Virus record (IMG/VR): IMGVR_UViG_3300033388_001954
Coordinates: 1 to 49,402 of that record
DNA length: 49,402 nt
From: a virus
Direction: 5' to 3' (one strand)
Shown here in pieces: positions 3,304 to 48,871 of this stretch. Each line of letters starts with the position of its first letter. Position 1 is the first letter of the stretch. The notes beneath the pieces were generated by a model. That model saw only the letters and a program-made list of their open reading frames with translations. It did not search any database and was not told the origin of the DNA. Both the position numbers and the translations under genes were made by a program.

Positions 3304-3648
3304 ATGGAATTACGCTTCACCAAAAAGGACTTCCACCTTACCTGGTTTAGTGGCACCGGCGGCGGTGGGCAGCACAGGAATAAGCACATGAACTGCTGCA
3401 GGTTGAAGCACATACCTTCGGGTGTGGTTAAGACTGGGCAAAGTAATCGCACTCGCCCCGCTAACCAAGCAGAGGCCCTTAACGCTATCGCTACTGATGT
3501 ACGCTTTTTAGCCCACGCATCGCTACGTCTGAGAGAGCTTGAGCGGGGAGAGACTACTGAGCAGGTTGTAGACAAAATGATGGCTAAGTTGGATGACTTC
3601 TTGACCCAAGTTAAAGACCCCGAAGGCAACTGGGTTAACCTTCTGTAG
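3304..3648 (+). CDS. GGQ-domain peptide-release-factor-like protein (ArfB-type)
   Basis: 114 aa. Residues 16-60 match the catalytic domain of class-I release factors: Ser-Gly-Thr-Gly-Gly-Gly-Gly-Gln at 16-23 (GGQ 21-23), His-Arg-Asn-Lys, then Leu-Lys-His-Ile-Pro-Ser-Gly-Val-Val and an Arg-Pro-Ala-Asn-Gln-Ala-Glu-Ala-Leu helix. GGQ places the water that hydrolyses peptidyl-tRNA in the ribosome. The codon-recognition domains of RF1/RF2 are absent, so it resembles stand-alone rescue factors such as ArfB/YaeJ. The C-terminus is an acidic helix rather than the basic tail ArfB inserts in the mRNA channel. GAGGG precedes the ATG. Confidence 0.85.
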   Translation: MELRFTKKDFHLTWFSGTGGGGQHRNKHMNCCRLKHIPSGVVKTGQSNRTRPANQAEALNAIATDVRFLAHASLRLRELERGETTEQVVDKMMAKLDDFLTQVKDPEGNWVNLL

Positions 3649-5643: not shown

Positions 5644-5729
5644 GGTGTCATGGCTGAGTGGTCAAAAGCGTCGGACTGTAAATCCGATCCCTTTAGGGTG
5701 CGATGGTTCAAATCCATCTGGCACCACCA
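5644..5729 (+). tRNA. tRNA-Tyr (anticodon GUA)
   Basis: The sequence folds as a class II tRNA with a long variable arm, as bacterial tRNA-Tyr does. The acceptor stem GGTGTCA (5644-5650) pairs with TGGCACC (5719-5725) with one G-U. The anticodon stem TCGGA/TCCGA encloses CTGTAAA with anticodon GTA. The T stem is GATGG/CCATC around TTCAAAT. The 3' CCA is encoded (5727-5729). It lies on the late strand between terS-region genes and the virion genes. Tyr identity is read from the anticodon. Confidence 0.95.
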
Positions 5730-5814
5730 AATAACAATGCCCTGCACGCCTCTCAAAGAAGCGCACCCTGCGGGGTCACTCTTTTATCATAACAACCACA
5801 GAGGTAACACCCTA

Positions 5815-6066
5815 ATGGGCAACGAATGCAATAATCGCGGCAGGAACTGGAAGCCAGTTGGTAACCATACTCCCCACGCTAGTAACAACATCACTACCCC
5901 CCATAACGCTATTATGGCAGTAGACGCCAGTGACGAGGCAGTGCTAGTGAATCATGAGGACGCACTCACTACGGTCTACCTCGCCCAGGGAGTGATTTAC
6001 CCAGTGAACTGCAAGCGGGTTAACGCTGTCGGTACTACCGCAACTTCCATCGCGCTATTTGCGTAG
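5815..6066 (+). CDS. Hypothetical protein (83 aa)
   Basis: The ATG at 5815 follows GAGGT at 9 nt; the longer in-frame start at 5650 would lie inside tRNA-Tyr and is rejected. The N-terminus is Asn/His-rich and polar, followed by an Ala/Val/Thr-rich segment with beta character (residues 37-83). It sits 12 bases before the LamG-like surface protein gene and may be a small decoration or capsid-associated protein; that is inference from position and composition. Confidence 0.6.
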   Translation: MGNECNNRGRNWKPVGNHTPHASNNITTPHNAIMAVDASDEAVLVNHEDALTTVYLAQGVIYPVNCKRVNAVGTTATSIALFA

Positions 6067-30985: not shown

Positions 30986-31543
30986 CTACTTCTCCTCTCT
31001 ATGGTTTTTCAGTAGCCTTTTAACTGATTCTTGTAGGTTATGGACAGTAGTCCCACTACAGCGCATCTGCTTGGCGGTCTCCCGATGGCTGTAACCATAA
31101 GCAAAACGCAGCTCAACCACTTTACGATGTCTGCTAGTTAGGTGCTTCTCTATGTATTGCAGCAGGTCTTCGTTGCTGTACTCTATGATGGCCTCATCTA
31201 CTGGCTGCTGACTGTCGGGTATCCCATCAAGGTTGAGTGATCGACGCTGCCTTTTTTCCTCCCTAACAATGCGCCGTGATATATTTCTCTTGAGTGACTT
31301 CGTGAAGTAGGTCCGAAACTTGGTGCGACCTTTGCGATAGTTCTTGACGCAGGTATTGAAGGCCTCCAGGAAGGCGTCCATGCAGCTGTCATCACCGTCT
31401 TCAGGTTGTAGCCTCCTTAAGGCCTTACCCTTTTCCCTCAGGAAAATAAACCACATCTGCTCCATAAGAGTACCATAGGACTCATCATCCTTACTGGCGG
31501 CTGCAGCTAAGGTATTTTGTTCTTCTGCTGATAGTATCTTCAT
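30986..31543 (-). CDS. Sigma-70 family factor (first of two)
   Basis: 185 aa when started at the ATG at 31543, which has AGGTGG at a good distance and an ATGA overlap with the upstream gene; the longer start (31570) is rejected. Region 2 lies about 55-95 (Met-Asp-Ala-Phe-Leu-Glu-Ala-Phe-Asn-Thr ... Lys-Phe-Arg-Thr-Tyr-Phe). Region 4 is at 135-180 (Ser-Arg-His-Arg-Lys-Val-Val-Glu-Leu-Arg-Phe, then a helix-turn-helix). It would direct host RNA polymerase to phage promoters. It is distinct in sequence from the second factor at 44613. Confidence 0.88.
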   Translation of the reverse strand: MKILSAEEQNTLAAAASKDDESYGTLMEQMWFIFLREKGKALRRLQPEDGDDSCMDAFLEAFNTCVKNYRKGRTKFRTYFTKSLKRNISRRIVREEKRQRRSLNLDGIPDSQQPVDEAIIEYSNEDLLQYIEKHLTSRHRKVVELRFAYGYSHRETAKQMRCSGTTVHNLQESVKRLLKNHREEK

Positions 31544-31731
31544 GGTGTTGCCACCTTCTTTTTTAGGCACAACTTACAGGTTACGTTCTTCCAGTTCCTT
31601 GCAATGTAGTAACGCTTGCCTCCCCAATATGCTCTTGGTCCACCACATAGTGACGTTGGCCTCCATTCCTTCTGACCAAAACCCAAGTAGTGTTCAACCT
31701 TTCTTTTGTAGTCTCCCTTATGTATCCTCAT
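31540..31731 (-). CDS. Small CxxC protein (63 aa)
   Basis: Basic protein ending in Cys-Lys-Leu-Cys-Leu-Lys-Lys-Lys and carrying Cys-Gly-Gly at residue 29, a likely half zinc finger. The ATG overlaps the upstream stop, and its own stop overlaps the sigma factor start (ATGA), so it is coupled to both. Could be a partner of the sigma factor, but this is unproven. Confidence 0.6.
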   Translation of the reverse strand: MRIHKGDYKRKVEHYLGFGQKEWRPTSLCGGPRAYWGGKRYYIARNWKNVTCKLCLKKKVATP

Positions 31732-41893: not shown

Positions 41894-42871
41894 TTAGTGG
41901 TTAATGTGGGCCAGTAAGGCGTTGCCACATGTAATCATCCCTCGCTCTTCTTCCTCGGAAGGTACAAACGTCAACACGTCGAAGCCGTTTGAAATTAAGT
42001 CTTGTTCAATATCTTCGTATGGTGTGAATGAGCTATATCCACCCTTAGTTCCGATAGAATTAGAGGTGCTTGCTGCGGTGTTATGGATTGGTGTCAACTT
42101 AACCATCCACCTTGTTGGGTCAAATAGATCCGCAAGCTTTTTCCCTGATATCTCGTAGCCGTCAGCTACTGCAAAATTTAGAGCGTATTTCCTACCACGC
42201 GGCTTTGGCAGCTTGTCGGCAAGGTACGAAATTCTTGCAAGGCTTGAAGAGCTACCACTAAACATCTCTTCGCGCTGCTTGTCGCATGTTGAGTTGATAC
42301 TTAGTTGTAAGCCAGCCTCACCGCCATAGGTGTCGTTTTTTACGTAATAGCACCACTCTGTGAGGTACGCCTGCAGATGCGTATTTGCGTGTGGCATCAT
42401 AGTGCTGATTACAGGGTGGATAGTGTCTGCCTGTACTCCTAGGTCATGGCTCACGAAGTAACGTAACCCCAGAGCATGGCGTAATGTATCTCGATTAAAT
42501 GTCGGCTCCCCCATCCGAGCGTAATGCACGTTAAGCCGCTTCGTTTCCGTCGCACCGCCGACAAGTAGCCCGGCTGCAACCTGCTTATTCATGTCAGCAA
42601 CAGAGGCATTTCTACCAGGGCCAACCTTGGGCACGTCACAGAATTTGCAGCCCATACTGCATCCGTACTGGCTTGAGATTGTGACAACCCATTTTTCGGT
42701 CAATGGTAGCGGTTGCCCATTTGGGACCCCTAAGAGCGGTCTGGTAATGCCAAGGAAGTCAGCTTTTATGTTAGCTTCTTTTCCGTAGTCTGCTATCGAG
42801 AGGCATTCAAGCTTCCCTTTTTGGCCATCAATAATGATTACTTGTCCTGTGGGAACATTTTGAATCTTCAT
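41894..42871 (-). CDS. RlmN-like radical SAM RNA methylase with altered active site (325 aa)
   Basis: The radical SAM cluster is Cys71-Ser-Met-Gly-Cys75-Lys-Phe-Cys78, preceded by Thr64-Ile-Ser-Ser-Gln-Tyr-Gly, which aligns with the Cys-Val-Ser-Ser-Gln-Val-Gly of RlmN. Met-Gly-Glu-Pro is at 120-123 and the carboxy end has Arg-Gly-Met-Ile-Thr-Cys315-Gly-Asn, matching the methyl-carrying Cys region. The residue that is Cys118 in E. coli RlmN is Thr64 here. RlmN/Cfr enzymes methylate A2503 of 23S rRNA and some tRNAs. The missing Cys may change the reaction. Confidence 0.8.
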   Translation of the reverse strand: MKIQNVPTGQVIIIDGQKGKLECLSIADYGKEANIKADFLGITRPLLGVPNGQPLPLTEKWVVTISSQYGCSMGCKFCDVPKVGPGRNASVADMNKQVAAGLLVGGATETKRLNVHYARMGEPTFNRDTLRHALGLRYFVSHDLGVQADTIHPVISTMMPHANTHLQAYLTEWCYYVKNDTYGGEAGLQLSINSTCDKQREEMFSGSSSSLARISYLADKLPKPRGRKYALNFAVADGYEISGKKLADLFDPTRWMVKLTPIHNTAASTSNSIGTKGGYSSFTPYEDIEQDLISNGFDVLTFVPSEEEERGMITCGNALLAHINH

Positions 42872-42901
42872 CTCTCTCTCCTTTTTTAGTGGTTAAGGGT
42901 C

Positions 42902-42921
42902 GCCCCGCCCGAAGGCGAGGC
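42902..42921 (-). other. Stable UUCG-loop hairpin between SSB-like and radical SAM genes
   Basis: On the minus strand GCCTCGCC-TTCG-GGCGGGGC forms an 8-base stem capped by a cUUCGg tetraloop. No U-tract follows, so it is not a standard terminator. It may slow transcript decay, pause polymerase or set expression of the downstream radical SAM gene relative to the SSB-like gene. Confidence 0.6.
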
Positions 42922-42936
42922 TTTCCCGTGGTGGTT

Positions 42937-42950
42937 AGGGCGATCGCCCT
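42937..42950. promoter_or_regulatory. Perfect 14-bp palindrome AGGGCGATCGCCCT
   Basis: Located 8 bases past the stop of the SSB-like gene. Could be a protein-binding site or the second hairpin of the same intergenic structure (contains the CGATCG restriction core). Confidence 0.4.
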
Positions 42951-42958
42951 AGATACCT

Positions 42959-43630
42959 CTAAAAGGCAATTTCGTCTTCATAGTCCGGGATACCACTAGT
43001 AGGTGCTTGCTGTTGTGGGGCCACATTCTGCGTAGTTTGTGGGGCCACCGCTTGCTGCGGGGGAGCCTGGTAACCACCCTGTGGAGGTGCCTGCTGGGCA
43101 GGAGCTTGCTGTGGGGCATATTGCTGCTGCGGCGGAGCCTGGGGGGCAGCCTGCTGGGCAGGAGCTTGCTGTGGAGCTGTAACCGGCTGGTAACCATTAC
43201 TAGCAGGCTGGTCGGAGTGCTGGATCTTAAGGTCAAGCCCCTTGCTGCCATCACCCTTAGTGTATTCCGTTACTAACAACGATACCGGGCGACCTTCACG
43301 GACTGCCGGCTCGAAGTCAGGCCAATGGGGGTGGGCTAACGTATAGTTACCAATGGCGGTGAGATCCTTAATGGTCCACTGCTGCGCGGAGGAACCCCAA
43401 CTCTTCGTCATGCGACGAGTGGGCATCCTCCCATGCTGGTCAGGCTGGAGGGGCTCCGGCCCGTTTGGTCCTGCAAACTCAAAGAGCTCCATGATGAGGA
43501 CGATAGCAGGATCACCTTTACGGGTTGTGGCGCTCTGTTGCCCGACGAGTTTGCCTTTGTAGTTACCGAGACGAAGGGGTGCCGTGCGTTGGTATTGCTG
43601 CTGGCCTTGGGGTGCTGGGTTGTAGGTCAT
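42959..43630 (-). CDS. Single-stranded DNA-binding-like protein with PQ-rich linker (223 aa)
   Basis: An N-terminal region (18-140) with beta-barrel-like strands (Leu-Gly-Asn-Tyr-Lys-Gly-Lys-Leu-Val-Gly, Val-Ser-Leu-Leu-Val-Thr-Glu) is followed by a Pro/Gln/Ala-rich linker (145-205) and an acidic end Pro-Asp-Tyr-Glu-Asp-Glu-Ile-Ala-Phe. That tip mimics the bacterial SSB tail (Asp-Asp-Ile-Pro-Phe) used to recruit partners. It would coat unwound DNA at the fork. The family assignment is by architecture, not by sequence match. Confidence 0.7.
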   Translation of the reverse strand: MTYNPAPQGQQQYQRTAPLRLGNYKGKLVGQQSATTRKGDPAIVLIMELFEFAGPNGPEPLQPDQHGRMPTRRMTKSWGSSAQQWTIKDLTAIGNYTLAHPHWPDFEPAVREGRPVSLLVTEYTKGDGSKGLDLKIQHSDQPASNGYQPVTAPQQAPAQQAAPQAPPQQQYAPQQAPAQQAPPQGGYQAPPQQAVAPQTTQNVAPQQQAPTSGIPDYEDEIAF

Positions 43631-43632
43631 AG

Positions 43633-44013
43633 TTATTGGTCCTTTGGGGTTGTTGATGCTGGGTTTTCTTTACCGTAGATATCGTTACTGACAGCCCTGG
43701 AGCTGCATGCTGGTAGGGATACCGCTTGGTTAATGTAACTCTGGATCGTGCCACTTCCCCAGTCAATGTAAAGATACCTGCTACCTTTTTCTTCCAGTAC
43801 CTCCTCAATAGTGAGCTTACTGGTATCTTCGATCTCCTTTTCTTTTTCTGTTACGTCTTCCTTAGCCTCCTTTATTTCCTGTTCTAGGCGCTTAATCTTT
43901 TCTTTGCGATATTCCAGGTGCTTATTGAGGCCCTTGAAGATGGCAATAACCTTCTCTTCTTTTTCCTCTTGTATTTCGTCCTTAGCGAGTACTGCTAGGT
44001 CTTTGCAATTCAC
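43633..44013 (-). CDS. Coiled-coil protein (126 aa)
   Basis: Residues about 15-75 form a charged heptad coiled coil (Glu/Lys rich). The remainder has Tyr-Leu-Tyr-Ile-Asp-Trp-Gly-Ser-Gly. Begins after the SSB-like gene's upstream region with AGGAAG before the ATG. May serve as a scaffold for replication or as a regulator. No family recognised. Confidence 0.6.
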   Translation of the reverse strand: MNCKDLAVLAKDEIQEEKEEKVIAIFKGLNKHLEYRKEKIKRLEQEIKEAKEDVTEKEKEIEDTSKLTIEEVLEEKGSRYLYIDWGSGTIQSYINQAVSLPACSSRAVSNDIYGKENPASTTPKDQ

Positions 44014-44240
44014 TTAGCTTCCTCCTTGGTATTACTATCGTCGAGGTCGCAGTATCCCGCAATCATGCCTACGATAGGGACTGGGATGCCAATAATGCGG
44101 ACTGCTTCTGCGCGGTAAGGCGCTTCGAAGTCACACTGGGTGAGCTTGTAGATATTCATAAAGAATCCTACGATTGCTAATGAAATTACTGCCAAGACAG
44201 TAATACCAACGGTTACTGATGCTGTGGGGTTGCTGCTCAT
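44010..44240 (-). CDS. Two-helix membrane protein (76 aa)
   Basis: Hydrophobic stretches at about 9-27 and 46-65, the second following Cys-Asp-Phe-Glu-Ala-Pro-Tyr-Arg-Ala-Glu. I recall similar small phage membrane proteins of unknown role. Possible superinfection-exclusion function; not proven. Acid-basic C-terminal tail overlaps the next gene by four bases. Confidence 0.6.
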   Translation of the reverse strand: MSSNPTASVTVGITVLAVISLAIVGFFMNIYKLTQCDFEAPYRAEAVRIIGIPVPIVGMIAGYCDLDDSNTKEEAK

Positions 44241-44259
44241 GATGCTACTTTTCCTTTTA

Positions 44260-44613
44260 CTAACTTACGTATGCTTTCAGGGCTGCTAATATGGTGGACT
44301 CTGAGAACTCCTTGCCGTTAATGGTGACGGTTTTTTCTGGTACTACCTCCTGAGGGCGTTCCCAGAGGAGGTCGCCTGTTTCTTTCTTGTAGAGGTCGTA
44401 TGCCTTGGGGCCTTCATAAACCTTAACAATGTCAAGCGTGTGGTCGCCACAGCAAATTAGATCCTCTTCAAAAAACTGTAGCTCACAAAATTTACCATGA
44501 AAACCACACAGGGAACCAGTAAAGCTAGTGCCATTCATGGTTTCCAGGTACAGGTAATGGTTACCCGCCCGATTCTCTAATACCATCCCCTGTTTCAAAT
44601 CACTTTTCTTCAT
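44260..44613 (-). CDS. Hypothetical protein with VTINGKE-type tail motif (117 aa)
   Basis: The end Lys-Thr-Val-Thr-Ile-Asn-Gly-Lys-Glu-Phe resembles tail sequences in paralogue 1 (Val-Thr-Val-Asn-Gly-Lys) and paralogue 3 (Val-Thr-Met-Asn-Gly-Lys) of the MKxYHxW family. A Cys-Gly-Phe-His-Gly-Lys-Phe-Cys and Cys-Cys-Gly-Asp-His segment may bind metal. The start overlaps the sigma factor stop (TAATG). Function unknown. Confidence 0.55.
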   Translation of the reverse strand: MKKSDLKQGMVLENRAGNHYLYLETMNGTSFTGSLCGFHGKFCELQFFEEDLICCGDHTLDIVKVYEGPKAYDLYKKETGDLLWERPQEVVPEKTVTINGKEFSESTILAALKAYVS

Positions 44614-45191
44614 TACGCGATCTCCCTTAGTTTTTCTACTGCTTTGTTGTAGCGCTTTAACGCGCCATTCTTACTGATTGATAACATATCGCCAATCTGC
44701 TGGAAGGTCAAGTCTTTCAGCCGTAATTCTACTACTTTTCTTTGGGGTGCTGACAGGAAGGATAAAAGGTGGGGAATGTCCTCTCTGTGGGCGGGCATTA
44801 CTATTAGGTCTGACATTGTTATCTCCGTGATGCCTGTTAGTTGTAGTTCAATTACGTCATCTGATGATATTGTGGTAGTGTCCCGCTTCCCCCGGGTGAC
44901 TGCTACCTTTTGGTGGTAGTCCCCTAACCTTCTCCTTGCTGCTGCCTTCAGGAAGGTGGCGACACCGCAGCCTTTTCGCTCGTCATAGTTCTTGATGGAT
45001 GATAACATAGCGGTAACCGCGATAGCGATGGCGTCATCATGCTCTATTGCCCACCACTTCGTAACCTCCTGCTTGATAAGTGGTACCATACTTTCTATTA
45101 ACAGACCACAAGCGTCTGTGTCCCCCTCCTTGGCGAGTACCACCACCTCCTGTTGCTGGGTAGTAGTTAGCGTTCTGCAATTATCCCACAT
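44613..45191 (-). CDS. Sigma-70 family factor (second)
   Basis: 192 aa. Region 2 is at about 40-95 (His-Asp-Asp-Ala-Ile-Ala-Ile-Ala-Val, Asn-Tyr-Asp-Glu-Arg-Lys-Gly, Ala-Thr-Phe-Leu-Lys-Ala-Ala-Ala-Arg). Region 4 is at about 140-190 (Pro-Gln-Arg-Lys-Val-Val-Glu-Leu-Arg-Leu, Thr-Phe-Gln-Gln-Ile-Gly-Asp-Met-Leu). It differs substantially from the first factor at 30986, so they may act in different phases. Both are in the leftward arm but 13 kb apart. The ATG lies 4 bases past the previous stop. Confidence 0.87.
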   Translation of the reverse strand: MWDNCRTLTTTQQQEVVVLAKEGDTDACGLLIESMVPLIKQEVTKWWAIEHDDAIAIAVTAMLSSIKNYDERKGCGVATFLKAAARRRLGDYHQKVAVTRGKRDTTTISSDDVIELQLTGITEITMSDLIVMPAHREDIPHLLSFLSAPQRKVVELRLKDLTFQQIGDMLSISKNGALKRYNKAVEKLREIA

Positions 45192-45195
45192 AATG

Positions 45196-45834
45196 TTATG
45201 ACCTTTCTTTTGTGGTTGTTAAGTTTTCCGTCCACTGGGTAGCCATAGCTACTGCTATGCCGGGGAAGGTTTTGCTTCTTTCCTTCGGAGAATTCCACGC
45301 CTTGAAGGAAGGTAGGCTGGACTGCTTCCTGGTACCATCCTTTCTTTGACCTCCCCTAGTGCTGTTGCTGCACCAGTTATGGGTTGGTGTTACCACCTCA
45401 GTTTCTCGCAGTAAAGGCAAGCCCTTAAGCCAGAGGCAAGTCTTCTTCATGAATGGATCGCCGAACTGCCATGGCTGTATAATCTGGTCGGGTTTTCGCC
45501 ATGCGGTAGAAAGCTTACCTACTGGGTTCTCGATAGCTACCCTATCGCAGCTGTCGTAAATCTTCATAACAAAATCTATTGCGGCTTGCTGCCTGCCATC
45601 TGCCACCTTCTGAGGCCATGACGGTGCGCCCGATGAGGCCAGGTGAGTGCAAGGCGGGAAAGCAATTACCATATCCCAATCTTCCATCAGCCACGCTTCT
45701 GCCAGCTGCTGCAGATGCCACCCTGGACGTCCACCACTACAGGGCAGCGGGTCGCAACTATAGGCCTCATGACCCCGCTTGCGTAGCTCCTTGGTTACTG
45801 CCTGGCTCTCTTCGCATGCTACTAGAATCCTCAT
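45196..45834 (-). CDS. Cytosine-C5-methyltransferase-like protein (212 aa)
   Basis: Motif IV appears as Pro-Pro-Cys-Thr-His-Leu (about 61-66) and motif VI as Glu-Asn-Pro-Val-Gly. The N-terminus (Met-Arg-Ile-Leu-Val-Ala-Cys-Glu-Glu-Ser) lacks the usual Phe-x-Gly-x-Gly start, and the protein is shorter than full Dcm enzymes. It may be a compact phage methylase that hides DNA from restriction or a derivative that no longer works. Start at 45834 chosen by GAGGTGAAG. Confidence 0.65.
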   Translation of the reverse strand: MRILVACEESQAVTKELRKRGHEAYSCDPLPCSGGRPGWHLQQLAEAWLMEDWDMVIAFPPCTHLASSGAPSWPQKVADGRQQAAIDFVMKIYDSCDRVAIENPVGKLSTAWRKPDQIIQPWQFGDPFMKKTCLWLKGLPLLRETEVVTPTHNWCSNSTRGGQRKDGTRKQSSLPSFKAWNSPKERSKTFPGIAVAMATQWTENLTTTKERS

Positions 45835-45847
45835 TTCTTCACCTCTG

Positions 45848-46273
45848 CTATTGTTGTGCTGCCGGCATGATGCCGTCAATTATCATTTGTGCCCATTCGA
45901 TGTGGCCAATCAGGAAACTTTCTGTGTCCTCGTAGGGGTAAGAAAGGGGCCCGATTTCTTCGTCACCCCAACCATACCTAACATTAGTTTCGTCGAGGGT
46001 TAAACCACCAAACGTCTGCTTGCAACAGGCGTACTTTCTATAGCACGAGGCCCTAACCGCCAACCACTTACATTGCGAGCTTATGCAGGCGTAGGTCGGA
46101 ACGCAATGAGGGCAGCCAGAAAAGTGGGGGTAATCCACAACCCCGCAGTATAGGTCTTTTAGTAGGGTAATATTCCTTTCATAGATCTGCCAAGCCTGCT
46201 GCATAGTGGTATCCACTAGTGCTAGCTGTTGGATTTCCTCTGGAAGTAATACGTAGAGATCCTTGGATATCAT
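45848..46273 (-). CDS. Cys-rich protein (141 aa)
   Basis: At least ten cysteines (including Cys-Pro-His-Cys at 54-57 and Cys-Ile-Ser-Ser-Gln-Cys at 63-68) indicate one or two metal sites. Helical ends flank this core. AAAGGAACC lies before the ATG. Function unknown. Confidence 0.6.
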   Translation of the reverse strand: MISKDLYVLLPEEIQQLALVDTTMQQAWQIYERNITLLKDLYCGVVDYPHFSGCPHCVPTYACISSQCKWLAVRASCYRKYACCKQTFGGLTLDETNVRYGWGDEEIGPLSYPYEDTESFLIGHIEWAQMIIDGIMPAAQQ

Positions 46274-46304
46274 GATTCTAGGTTCCTTTCTTTGATGGTT
46301 GTTG

Positions 46305-46730
46305 TTATTGTTTTGCTAGTCTGTCATATAAAATAACATTTACGGTTGCTGCTAAATTCATGCAGCCACTTGTGGGGATGTATACCCTATCTCGGCACCA
46401 GTCGGTGATGCGGGAGCCTAGCGTTGCGTCCTCCCCGCCAAAGATGTAGAAAGCCCTTGCCGGGTGCTGATACTCAGGTAGTGGTGTAGCGCCTTCTATG
46501 AGGTCCACAGCTACAGGCACGCAGTCGAAAGGTAAAACCTCACGAAGGTTAGATGGCCTAAAGAATGGTAAGTGCCGATAGCTGCACATAGTGTCGGTGT
46601 TCTGCCTCTTGAAGCGCTTGCCGGTAGCCGCTACGAAGGACGCATTATACACACCTGCTGCACGGAGTGCTGCTCCTACGTTGACGTCAAACTTAGGGTT
46701 ATCTAGCCCGATTCCGCAATATCCTCTCAT
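46305..46730 (-). CDS. SPOUT-family RNA 2'-O-methylase (TrmH/TrmL-like)
   Basis: 141 aa, the size of minimal SPOUT methylases. Motif 1 is Asn-Pro-Lys-Phe-Asp-Val-Asn-Val-Gly-Ala-Ala-Leu-Arg-Ala-Ala (11-25), motif 2 is Phe-Gly-Gly-Glu-Asp-Ala-Thr-Leu-Gly (97-105), and motif 3 is Ile-Pro-Thr-Ser-Gly-Cys-Met-Asn-Leu-Ala-Ala-Thr-Val-Asn (118-131), forming the knotted SAM site. Members methylate ribose at tRNA wobble positions (TrmL) or rRNA. The target of this one is unknown. Rare in phages to my knowledge. Confidence 0.82.
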   Translation of the reverse strand: MRGYCGIGLDNPKFDVNVGAALRAAGVYNASFVAATGKRFKRQNTDTMCSYRHLPFFRPSNLREVLPFDCVPVAVDLIEGATPLPEYQHPARAFYIFGGEDATLGSRITDWCRDRVYIPTSGCMNLAATVNVILYDRLAKQ

Positions 46731-46984
46731 TTCTTCACCTTCTCTACTTTATTGTTGTTGCATCCAAAGCGGTGGCAAGTTAAGGTACCGTCATCGCCAT
46801 CTTCCCATACTCGTCGGTTACTGCCACAGGTGCTGCAGGCTGGTAACGCCAGGTCCTGGTGGCATTCCTCGCAGTAGTTATCACCTTCATAGGTGAGGAT
46901 GCTGTCGTTACCGCAGCCACAACAGGGTGGCGGGTCCGGTAGCCAATAGTCGGGATGCTCCATTATGATAGGTGGTCCATACAT
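46727..46984 (-). CDS. Double zinc-ribbon protein (85 aa)
   Basis: Cys-Cys-Gly-Cys-Gly (20-24), Cys-Glu-Glu-Cys (38-41), Cys-Ser-Thr-Cys-Gly (50-54) and Cys-His-Arg-Phe-Gly-Cys (70-75) form two four-Cys sites. The stop overlaps the SPOUT gene start (ATGA). AAAGGATAA precedes the ATG; an in-frame ATG at 46963 is possible. Coupling to the SPOUT methylase hints at a partner role in RNA binding. Confidence 0.6.
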   Translation of the reverse strand: MYGPPIIMEHPDYWLPDPPPCCGCGNDSILTYEGDNYCEECHQDLALPACSTCGSNRRVWEDGDDGTLTCHRFGCNNNKVEKVKK

Positions 46985-47029
46985 GGTGGGGTTATTATCC
47001 TTTTGCTACAGTCATTTTGTGTATATCCA

Positions 47030-47308
47030 TTACTGTGATACCTCTTGGCTAGTCATTGCTAACGCTGCACCAACTACCGTTTTCGTCATCTCATGCGACT
47101 CCTTTACTTGCTTATCCAGGTCGGCAGAGTGACCAGCAGAGATAGCTTTTGAGGATTTATATACCTCATCAGATATTTCCAAAAGAGCATGACCAATGAA
47201 TTTATTGCCAACGTTGAAAAAATTTACTGACATATCCCGCAATTCACGGGCGACTTCGTTGAGGTTTTTAGTTTCGTCAAATACAATGTCTAAGAATTTC
47301 TTTTTCAT
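47030..47308 (-). CDS. Hypothetical helical protein (92 aa)
   Basis: The ATG at 47308 overlaps the previous stop (ATGA) and has AGGT 8 nt upstream; longer starts at 47323 and 47365 lack good ribosome sites. Basic start (Met-Lys-Lys-Lys) then helical with no cysteine. No family recognised. Confidence 0.55.
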   Translation of the reverse strand: MKKKFLDIVFDETKNLNEVARELRDMSVNFFNVGNKFIGHALLEISDEVYKSSKAISAGHSADLDKQVKESHEMTKTVVGAALAMTSQEVSQ

Positions 47309-47514
47309 TTTTGTACCTGCCATGCTGTTGCCCCGCGTACCATTGCTTGGGAGTAGTTGAACCACAACTGTGAATTGTAGCCTGTTTTCTTTGTTGTATA
47401 AGTAGTGACTGTCGGGCTTCCGTAGGGCTCCCAGCCGTCTTTCAGGTGTTCGTTGACGGCATCATTGAGCTCACCTTGAGTTCCGCATAGGAGTTTGTAT
47501 TCGTTCTTTGTCAT
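47305..47514 (-). CDS. DUF1737-like small protein (69 aa)
   Basis: Leu-Lys-Asp-Gly-Trp-Glu-Pro-Tyr-Gly-Ser-Pro (about 24-34) and Tyr-Ser-Gln-Ala-Met-Val-Arg (54-60) are the signature of DUF1737, a widespread bacterial/phage family of unknown function. GAGATGACAAA precedes the frame. It sits just upstream (in transcription) of the coiled gene and downstream of the tRNA-like gene. Confidence 0.7.
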   Translation of the reverse strand: MTKNEYKLLCGTQGELNDAVNEHLKDGWEPYGSPTVTTYTTKKTGYNSQLWFNYSQAMVRGATAWQVQK

Positions 47515-47552
47515 CTCATATTATCCATTTGCTGTTCCTTGGTTAAGGGTTC

Positions 47553-47640
47553 TGGTGCGAGAGGCGGGACTCGAACCTGCAGTGGCCCATAATGGCAAGT
47601 AGCGACCTTGCCGGGTGCTTCTCCATTAAGCTACTCTCGC
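47553..47640 (-). tRNA. Irregular tRNA-like gene, anticodon uncertain
   Basis: On the minus strand GCGAGAG (acceptor, 47640-47634) pairs with CTCTCGC (47563-47557), followed by discriminator A and encoded CCA. A regular 4-bp D stem GCTT/AAGC and a T arm GCAGG-TTCGAGT-CCCGC (one A-C mismatch) are present. The middle is irregular: a 6-bp hairpin GGCAAG-GTCGCTA-CTTGCC sits inside a flanking CCC/GGG pairing. If the 7-base loop is the anticodon loop the anticodon reads CGC (Ala), but base 37 would be T. A different fold could expose GCC (Gly). Total 88 bases. Confidence 0.6.
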
Positions 47641-48103: not shown

Positions 48104-48343
48104 TGTGGTGTTATCCTCGTTAGTTGTTGTTGATGCTGCTGTCATTATTTCTGACAGTTCCTAACATTACTACCCCCTTACGGCTATTACAAGCAGCTTT
48201 TCTAAAAAGGATAAAATTTTTCTGATCTACGCCCTGCTAGGGTGCTTCCCTCACGTATGCGCACGTATATATATACCGCACACCCACACGTTATAATTGG
48301 TATTCTTATCAATGATCTACTTTCAAGAAGGTATACCCTATAA

Positions 48344-48385
48344 GGTTACCCCGCTATGGTTACCCCGCTATGGTTATGCTACTAT
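48344..48385. repeat. 14-bp tandem repeat GGTTACCCCGCTAT (2 exact + 1 degenerate)
   Basis: Two exact copies (48344-48357 and 48358-48371) are followed by a degenerate third (GGTTATGCTACTAT, 48372-48385). The period is close to one and a half helical turns; tandem iterons of this kind often bind replication or regulatory proteins. It adjoins a longer repeat array. Confidence 0.85.
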
Positions 48386-48403
48386 GGTTAACCTACTGGG
48401 GTT

Positions 48404-48485
48404 ACCTACTAGGTAGTAACCTTTCAGGTAGGTTAAACCTACTAGGTAGTAACCTTTCAGGTAGGTAGTAAACTTTCAGGTAGTA
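48404..48485. repeat. 33-bp tandem repeat with internal palindromes
   Basis: A 29-base unit beginning ACCTACTAGGTAGTAACC repeats exactly at 48404-48432 and 48437-48465 with a 33-base period, followed by a partial third copy to about 48485. The unit contains the palindrome ACCTACTAGGT and a further AGGTAGG arm, so each copy can form a small hairpin. Likely protein-binding iterons or part of an origin. Confidence 0.85.
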
Positions 48486-48756
48486 GTTAGGGGGTGTTAA
48501 CGATATTCATACTTTTGGGAAGTAGCTAATAAAATGTAGTGACTATGAAAGGTGATACCCAAACTGGCTAAGTGCTGTAATTATTGTGGAGGATAGTAAA
48601 GCCCTGCTTGGGTTACGACAACTATGGTGAGAAATATTAGGTTATAGCATCTTGTTGTTGGAAACCATCTCCCCCCCGCCAACGGCAAGTGCTAAGAAGG
48701 AATTACCCTGATTATAGGGCTAGCATCCGTTCTAAGGTACTTCTCGTGAAGAACAC

Positions 48757-48784
48757 AGTGAAAAGCCACCCTTGATAAGGGTAG
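48757..48784 (-). terminator. Intrinsic terminator of the leftward early unit
   Basis: ACCCTT-ATC-AAGGGT on the minus strand, then GGCTTTTC, forms a short stem followed by T's. It lies about 90 bases past the last leftward early gene (48872) and just before the repeat-rich region. Confidence 0.65.
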
Positions 48785-48794
48785 CTATGTTTTG

Positions 48795-48826
48795 AAGCTT
48801 GTAGGTATGTTACTGTTGGAAAGCTA
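48795..48826. repeat. 32-bp direct repeat, copy B
   Basis: Identical to 194-225. In both places the element follows the stop of a leftward gene, here about 45 bases beyond. Downstream bases TACTGTTG (48811-48818) and CAACAGTA (48845-48852) can pair, so this copy may form a larger hairpin than copy A. Confidence 0.85.
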
Positions 48827-48871
48827 CCATTAAGGGGTAAACCTCAACAGTAGCTTAGGTAGGTTTATGGG

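Follow-up and report, generated by a model that had tools for sequence, protein, structure and literature searches.

The window analysed here, a whole IMG/VR virus record of 49,402 bases, carries virion genes for an epsilon15-like capsid protein, a head–tail connector and a terminase, together with replication-type genes for a DnaB-like helicase and a 5'–3' exonuclease. No tyrosine integrase was found in a search of the 49,402-base genome, and the phage looks lytic. A first-pass annotation had reported that the genome lacks a DNA polymerase, which held as far as family A, for which our search of the full sequence was also negative. A capsid-based search of IMG/VR returned no close relatives, and no near relative was present in INPHARED. 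The same annotation had named five translation-related features as a possible translation-remodelling set, and all five exist at the positions given, each with Pfam, PHROG, Rfam or ARAGORN support. Two are on the plus strand ahead of the terminase: a 114-amino-acid RF-1 domain protein (3304–3648; PF00472, E = 8e-11, 42.3 bits against a cut-off of 35), whose GGQ motif appears in the translation as GTGGGGQHRNKH and which thus combines the above-threshold domain and the motif of RF-1/ArfB-type peptidyl-tRNA hydrolases, and a tRNA-Tyr (GTA) with an encoded CCA end (5644–5729; ARAGORN; RF00005, 66.4 bits). The other three lie on the replication side and are read from the minus strand: an RlmN/Cfr-related radical-SAM protein (41894–42871; PHROG_24834, E = 4e-123; RlmN in the PDB, E = 2e-6), a 141-amino-acid SPOUT methyltransferase of the SpoU/TrmH type (46305–46730; PF00588, E = 3e-12, 47.2 bits against a cut-off of 29.7) and an irregular tRNA-like gene, Ala(CGC), with CCA encoded (47553–47640; ARAGORN; RF00005, 41 bits against a cut-off of 29). 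This second tRNA has a non-standard fold, with additional bases ahead of its anticodon stem and within its variable region, and a search among phages found no full-length relative of it. The set had been placed at 41894–47640, a range that contains these three minus-strand features and leaves the two plus-strand ones outside.

In RlmN, the methyl group is carried by C355 and the enzyme–RNA adduct is resolved by C118. Alignment of 28 phage RlmN-like proteins to E. coli RlmN from MG1655 revealed that the CxxxCxxC cluster cysteines (C125, C129 and C132) and the methyl-carrier C355 were kept in every one, and that the position of the catalytic C118 was occupied by Thr in all 28. The name 'RlmN' is therefore unsuitable for this phage family. 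NCBIfam RlmN/Cfr models all scored far below cut-off. Judging from these residues, the family may use another residue, carry out other chemistry or trap RNA, an RlmN deprived of C118 being expected to stall in a crosslink with its RNA.

The proposal that the five genes form one set was examined by co-occurrence. We collected 28 viral loci with an RlmN-like protein (47–59% identity) and 7 with a SPOUT protein (55–71%), and searched the 34 whole phage records behind them (27 RlmN-like, 7 SPOUT) for the other members. The GGQ protein was absent from all 34 records, and RlmN-like and SPOUT genes occurred together in a single one, from a phage of 215 kb in which tRNA matches numbered 31. Among 29 of these records, tRNAs exceeded the cut-off in 9 and the abiF RNA described below in none, and window proteins other than the query seldom recurred in these loci. 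Relatives thus do not keep the set and, because its members do not co-occur among them, the five genes are not one module and travel singly. In favour of the set are the presence of every member in the window and the proven ability of phage tRNAs to offset tRNA-cutting defences (PMC11555353); against it stand the co-occurrence counts and the arrangement of the genes in two blocks far apart on opposite strands, and we regard a single translation-remodelling set as very improbable indeed. The three proteins (GGQ, RlmN-like and SPOUT) and the second tRNA are each an accessory in its own right rather than part of one machine. What survives of the suggestion that the set counters host defences is confined to the locus formed by tRNA-Tyr and the abiF RNA next to it.

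AbiF is a widespread defence toxin, an HEPN RNase reported to be ancestral to Cas13, and abiF RNA is its antitoxin. An Rfam scan placed an abiF RNA hairpin at 5740–5776 on the plus strand (RF03085; 38.8 bits against a cut-off of 37, a margin of 1.8 bits; E = 3e-7 for the genome), starting ten bases 3' of tRNA-Tyr in the gap ahead of a small ORF with a likely start at 5815. This element had not been noticed in the first-pass annotation. All nine RF03085 consensus pairs (six outer and three inner, in a two-stem fold) are formed, and the minimum-energy fold of −14.9 kcal/mol has both stems and adds an A7–U30 pair and three intraloop pairs. The intervening ten bases (5730–5739) are an unpaired 5' flank containing the element AACA, which recurs in other phage copies and in AbiF-linked bacterial ones: of 40 phage cluster representatives among the matches listed, 20 had AACA near the hairpin, as had 11 of 39 AbiF-linked bacterial copies, compared with its occurrence in 2.5% of random 8-mers. 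Neither an Abi_2 protein nor an AbiF-like ORF was found anywhere in the 49,402 bases, so the locus is the RNA part of an AbiF system only and not an AbiF system. The window RNA is thus a member of the abiF family in a phage without an AbiF protein. Chance resemblance was considered and excluded on the model score and on the covariation and bacterial control that follow.

Orphan abiF RNAs proved to be common in viruses. Scanning viral contigs with a loop-core pattern gave at least 120 loci, 108 of which, with at least five outer-stem pairs and small shifts allowed, made up the viral set. We tested 50 whole viral records, comprising 45 from pattern loci, four named phages and the window; from the matches listed, RF03085 exceeded its cut-off in 45 of the 50 and an Abi_2 protein was found in none. 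A viral contig may lack part of its genome, but each named phage is represented by a complete genome, and Abi_2 was likewise absent from six further complete phages. The same pattern in bacterial genomes yielded 74 stem-bearing copies. An AbiF-like ORF was present in 43 of these 74 loci (fetched locus up to 8 kb) and in 1 of 48 weak-stem bacterial matches, compared with 0 of the 108 viral loci among the matches listed (Fisher P = 6e-22, viral against stem-bearing bacterial loci). Abi_2 was present in 39 of 50 bacterial genomes tested, a plasmid copy of the RNA lay 22 nt upstream of an annotated Abi gene, and the neighbour protein of a bacterial abiF RNA matched PDB 8vz6, an Abi family protein. 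E. coli genomes searched with one common motif variant gave no match, so work on coliphages may have missed the element.

The hairpin bears marks of selection in phages. In a covariation alignment of 27 phage sequences (24 distinct), standard pairs filled 99.1% of pair cells, a figure biased upward because rows were picked mostly for full stems. Double changes in the stems, a measure free of that bias, numbered 44 compared with 12.6 after shuffling, and all six outer pairs were altered on both sides at least once. The outer stem is an independent test because the search pattern left it unspecified; the invariance of the loop core in the viral set is a product of that pattern. The hairpin occupied the same site in three Aeromonas T7-like phages, between the connector gene and the scaffold gene, and varied among them by a compensatory A–U/C–G change. 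Together, these data show that many unrelated phages carry an orphan abiF RNA whose structure is under selection. They bear on the idea that the phage copies are functionless relics or passengers of once-complete AbiF loci, which draws on the occurrence of complete AbiF systems in prophages (PMC12373285) and on the identity of certain viral copies to bacterial ones: seven viral loci among the matches listed held a 37-nt motif identical to that of an AbiF-linked bacterial copy, and one of these sequences recurred in the complete phages PZL-Ah8 and CGphi29. Retention of structure through compensatory changes across unrelated phages, including the three T7-like variants at one site, argues against such decay, as does the absence of abiF gene fragments, sought by HMM, from all 108 viral loci among the matches listed, and we consider this explanation distinctly improbable.

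Proximity to tRNA was a recurrent feature of the viral copies. Among the matches listed, 36 of 108 had a tRNA within 30 nt, compared with 1.66 expected and a maximum of 8 in 2,000 trials, and the neighbouring tRNAs mostly began 2–8 nt downstream of the hairpin. Counted by flank cluster among the same matches, adjacency fell to 8 of 46, one lineage being dominant. None of the 74 bacterial copies had a tRNA within 100 nt. The hairpin is part of tRNA arrays in two cyanophages, S-CREM1 and S-SZBM1, 4 nt ahead of tRNA-Gly and tRNA-Ala; in Omegavirus mycobacteriophages it precedes tRNA-Gly by about 270 nt, and in Acj61 it lies 74 nt upstream of a GIY-YIG homing endonuclease gene. A hairpin so often found between tRNAs could be a structural element of phage transcripts that is merely abiF-shaped, such as a terminator, an RNA-stability signal or a tRNA-array processing signal, with AbiF not its target; the T-rich stretch CACTCTTTTA 3' of the window copy fits such a role. 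However, a terminator or spacer would have no need of the loop core or of AACA in the 5' flank, T tracts are weaker in phage copies than in bacterial AbiF-linked ones, many copies do not lie near tRNAs, and in T7-like phages the place of the hairpin is between connector and scaffold genes. No consensus promoter was called upstream of the window motif and no intrinsic terminator near it. We judge a role confined to transcript structure to be fairly unlikely.

To our knowledge, little is known of how phages escape AbiF. RCd22, an antitoxin RNA with two abiF motifs, binds AbiF directly and so neutralizes it both in cis and in trans, an effect for which its stems matter (PMC12373285). Compared with AbiFr/RCd22 (RF03085; PDB 8vz6), the window copy shares the RNA family, both stems, part of the loop core and the AACA of the 5' flank that some of the bacterial copies have; it differs in having no AbiF gene after it, a single motif, an adjacent phage tRNA and two loop-core changes. 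From these likenesses, together with the orphan counts, the stem covariation, the motifs identical to bacterial ones and the tRNA adjacency, we propose that tRNA-Tyr and the orphan abiF RNA (5644–5776) probably constitute a locus supplying a phage-borne RNA decoy that would neutralize host AbiF, a reading we favour with some reserve. The narrow score margin of the window copy, its two loop-core changes, the weight of one lineage in the tRNA adjacency and the lack of a called upstream promoter speak against it. The abiF RNA would be transcribed together with tRNA-Tyr during infection, be released from the tRNA transcript and fold unaided. It would then act in trans on the host's toxin, the HEPN RNase AbiF, binding it and keeping it occupied in the manner of the cognate antitoxin, and the growth arrest that phage infection triggers through AbiF would thereby fail. 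The adjoining tRNA-Tyr, for its part, would stand in for the host tRNA-Tyr that PtuAB-type effectors cut. A phage tRNA-Tyr is a shown antidote to the tRNA-Tyr-cutting PtuAB of retron-Eco7 and Septu (PMC11555353, PMC13096335); the window tRNA, known by its sequence, resembles it in being a phage-encoded tRNA-Tyr, and the locus may therefore serve as a compact cassette of RNA counter-defences.

The loop core is where the window copy departs from its family. It retains GCCUCUCAA, GA, GC and CA, and deviates at C18A and U21A, changes that might weaken AbiF binding; the copy could accordingly be a weaker antitoxin or one tuned to another AbiF. The same changes could reflect a different partner, as they would if the RNA bound some protein of the phage or the host in place of AbiF, or tuned AbiF against competing phages, and so served as a regulator rather than a decoy. 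However, the sole demonstrated partner of the abiF RNA family is AbiF (PMC12373285; PDB 8vz6), and we give this reading little credence beside neutralization of host AbiF. Evidence from lactococcal phages falls on neither side. By the title of a 2000 report from Rince, a DNA region of phage sk1 reportedly protects phage 712 from AbiF. As sk1 has no RF03085 match, it neither supports nor refutes the decoy reading.

RNA antidotes have precedents in phages. RNA anti-CRISPRs (Racr, solitary repeat units; PMC10651486) are viral solitary defence RNAs that occupy a host protein, as we propose for the abiF RNA; the window phage, like them, has a solitary defence RNA and no corresponding defence protein. 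Their target is a Cas protein, whereas the putative target here is a toxin related to the Cas13 ancestor. The ToxI-like RNA of PhiTE, with which that phage imitates a type III RNA antitoxin to act against ToxIN (Blower 2012, as cited in PMC9391042), is a second precedent; it belongs to another toxin–antitoxin family and is reported from escape mutants selected in a single phage, not from many natural phages. The nearest case is the S-CREM1 abiF sRNA, an orphan of the same RNA family inside a tRNA array, which was annotated without an antitoxin or counter-defence role being proposed, in a report noting the abiF motif in three bacteriophage genomes in Rfam (PMC9964418); in a 2025 review its role is described as unconfirmed (PMC12197685). 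We found no proposal of a decoy role for phage abiF RNA in the literature searched, most subscription papers and preprints lying outside that search.

Whether orphan abiF RNAs amount to a widespread class of phage RNA counter-defence, with tRNA arrays serving as antidote cassettes (tRNA-Tyr against PtuAB, abiF RNA against AbiF), seems to us an evenly balanced matter. If the lone AbiF antitoxin RNA is indeed common in phages, it would form an RNA-based anti-defence class beside the RNA anti-CRISPRs, offer an explanation for phage small RNAs lacking an assigned role and make non-tRNA hairpins inside phage tRNA arrays possible antidotes. Carriers of this putative class included T7-like, T4-like, cyanobacterial, mycobacterial and epsilon15-like phages, often with the hairpin inside a tRNA array.

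The RlmN/Cfr-like protein encoded at 41894–42871 (minus strand) belongs to the phage family PHROG_24834, whose members carry Thr at the position of C118 (E. coli RlmN numbering), the resolving cysteine of RlmN, in 28 of 28 cases and retain the Fe-S cysteines and C355. Judged by these residues, PHROG_24834 proteins may be stalled or RNA-trapping enzymes. The 49-kb phage also has genes for two sigma-70-like proteins, distinct from each other, at 30986–31570 and 44613–45191 (both minus strand).

The irregular tRNA at 47553–47640 (minus strand, CCA encoded) lacks the G3-U70 pair that is a feature of tRNA-Ala, although its anticodon is read as CGC, and four additional bases separate its D arm from the anticodon stem. 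Close to the right end, positions 48180–48870 hold few genes and, as read from the sequence, GGTTACC/AGGTAGTAACCTTTCAGGTAGG-type repeats, possibly marking an origin or control region.

The right end of Lactococcus phage sk1 (locus L280:27381–28451) is gene-poor, with two tRNA-like genes, neither annotated in the sk1 record; going by a paper title, an sk1 DNA region reportedly protects another phage from AbiF. In Acinetobacter phage Acj61 (locus L302:1001–1546), an orphan abiF RNA precedes a GIY-YIG homing endonuclease by 74 nt; an endonuclease of this kind, SegB, amplifies anti-defence loci in T6 (PMC13096335).
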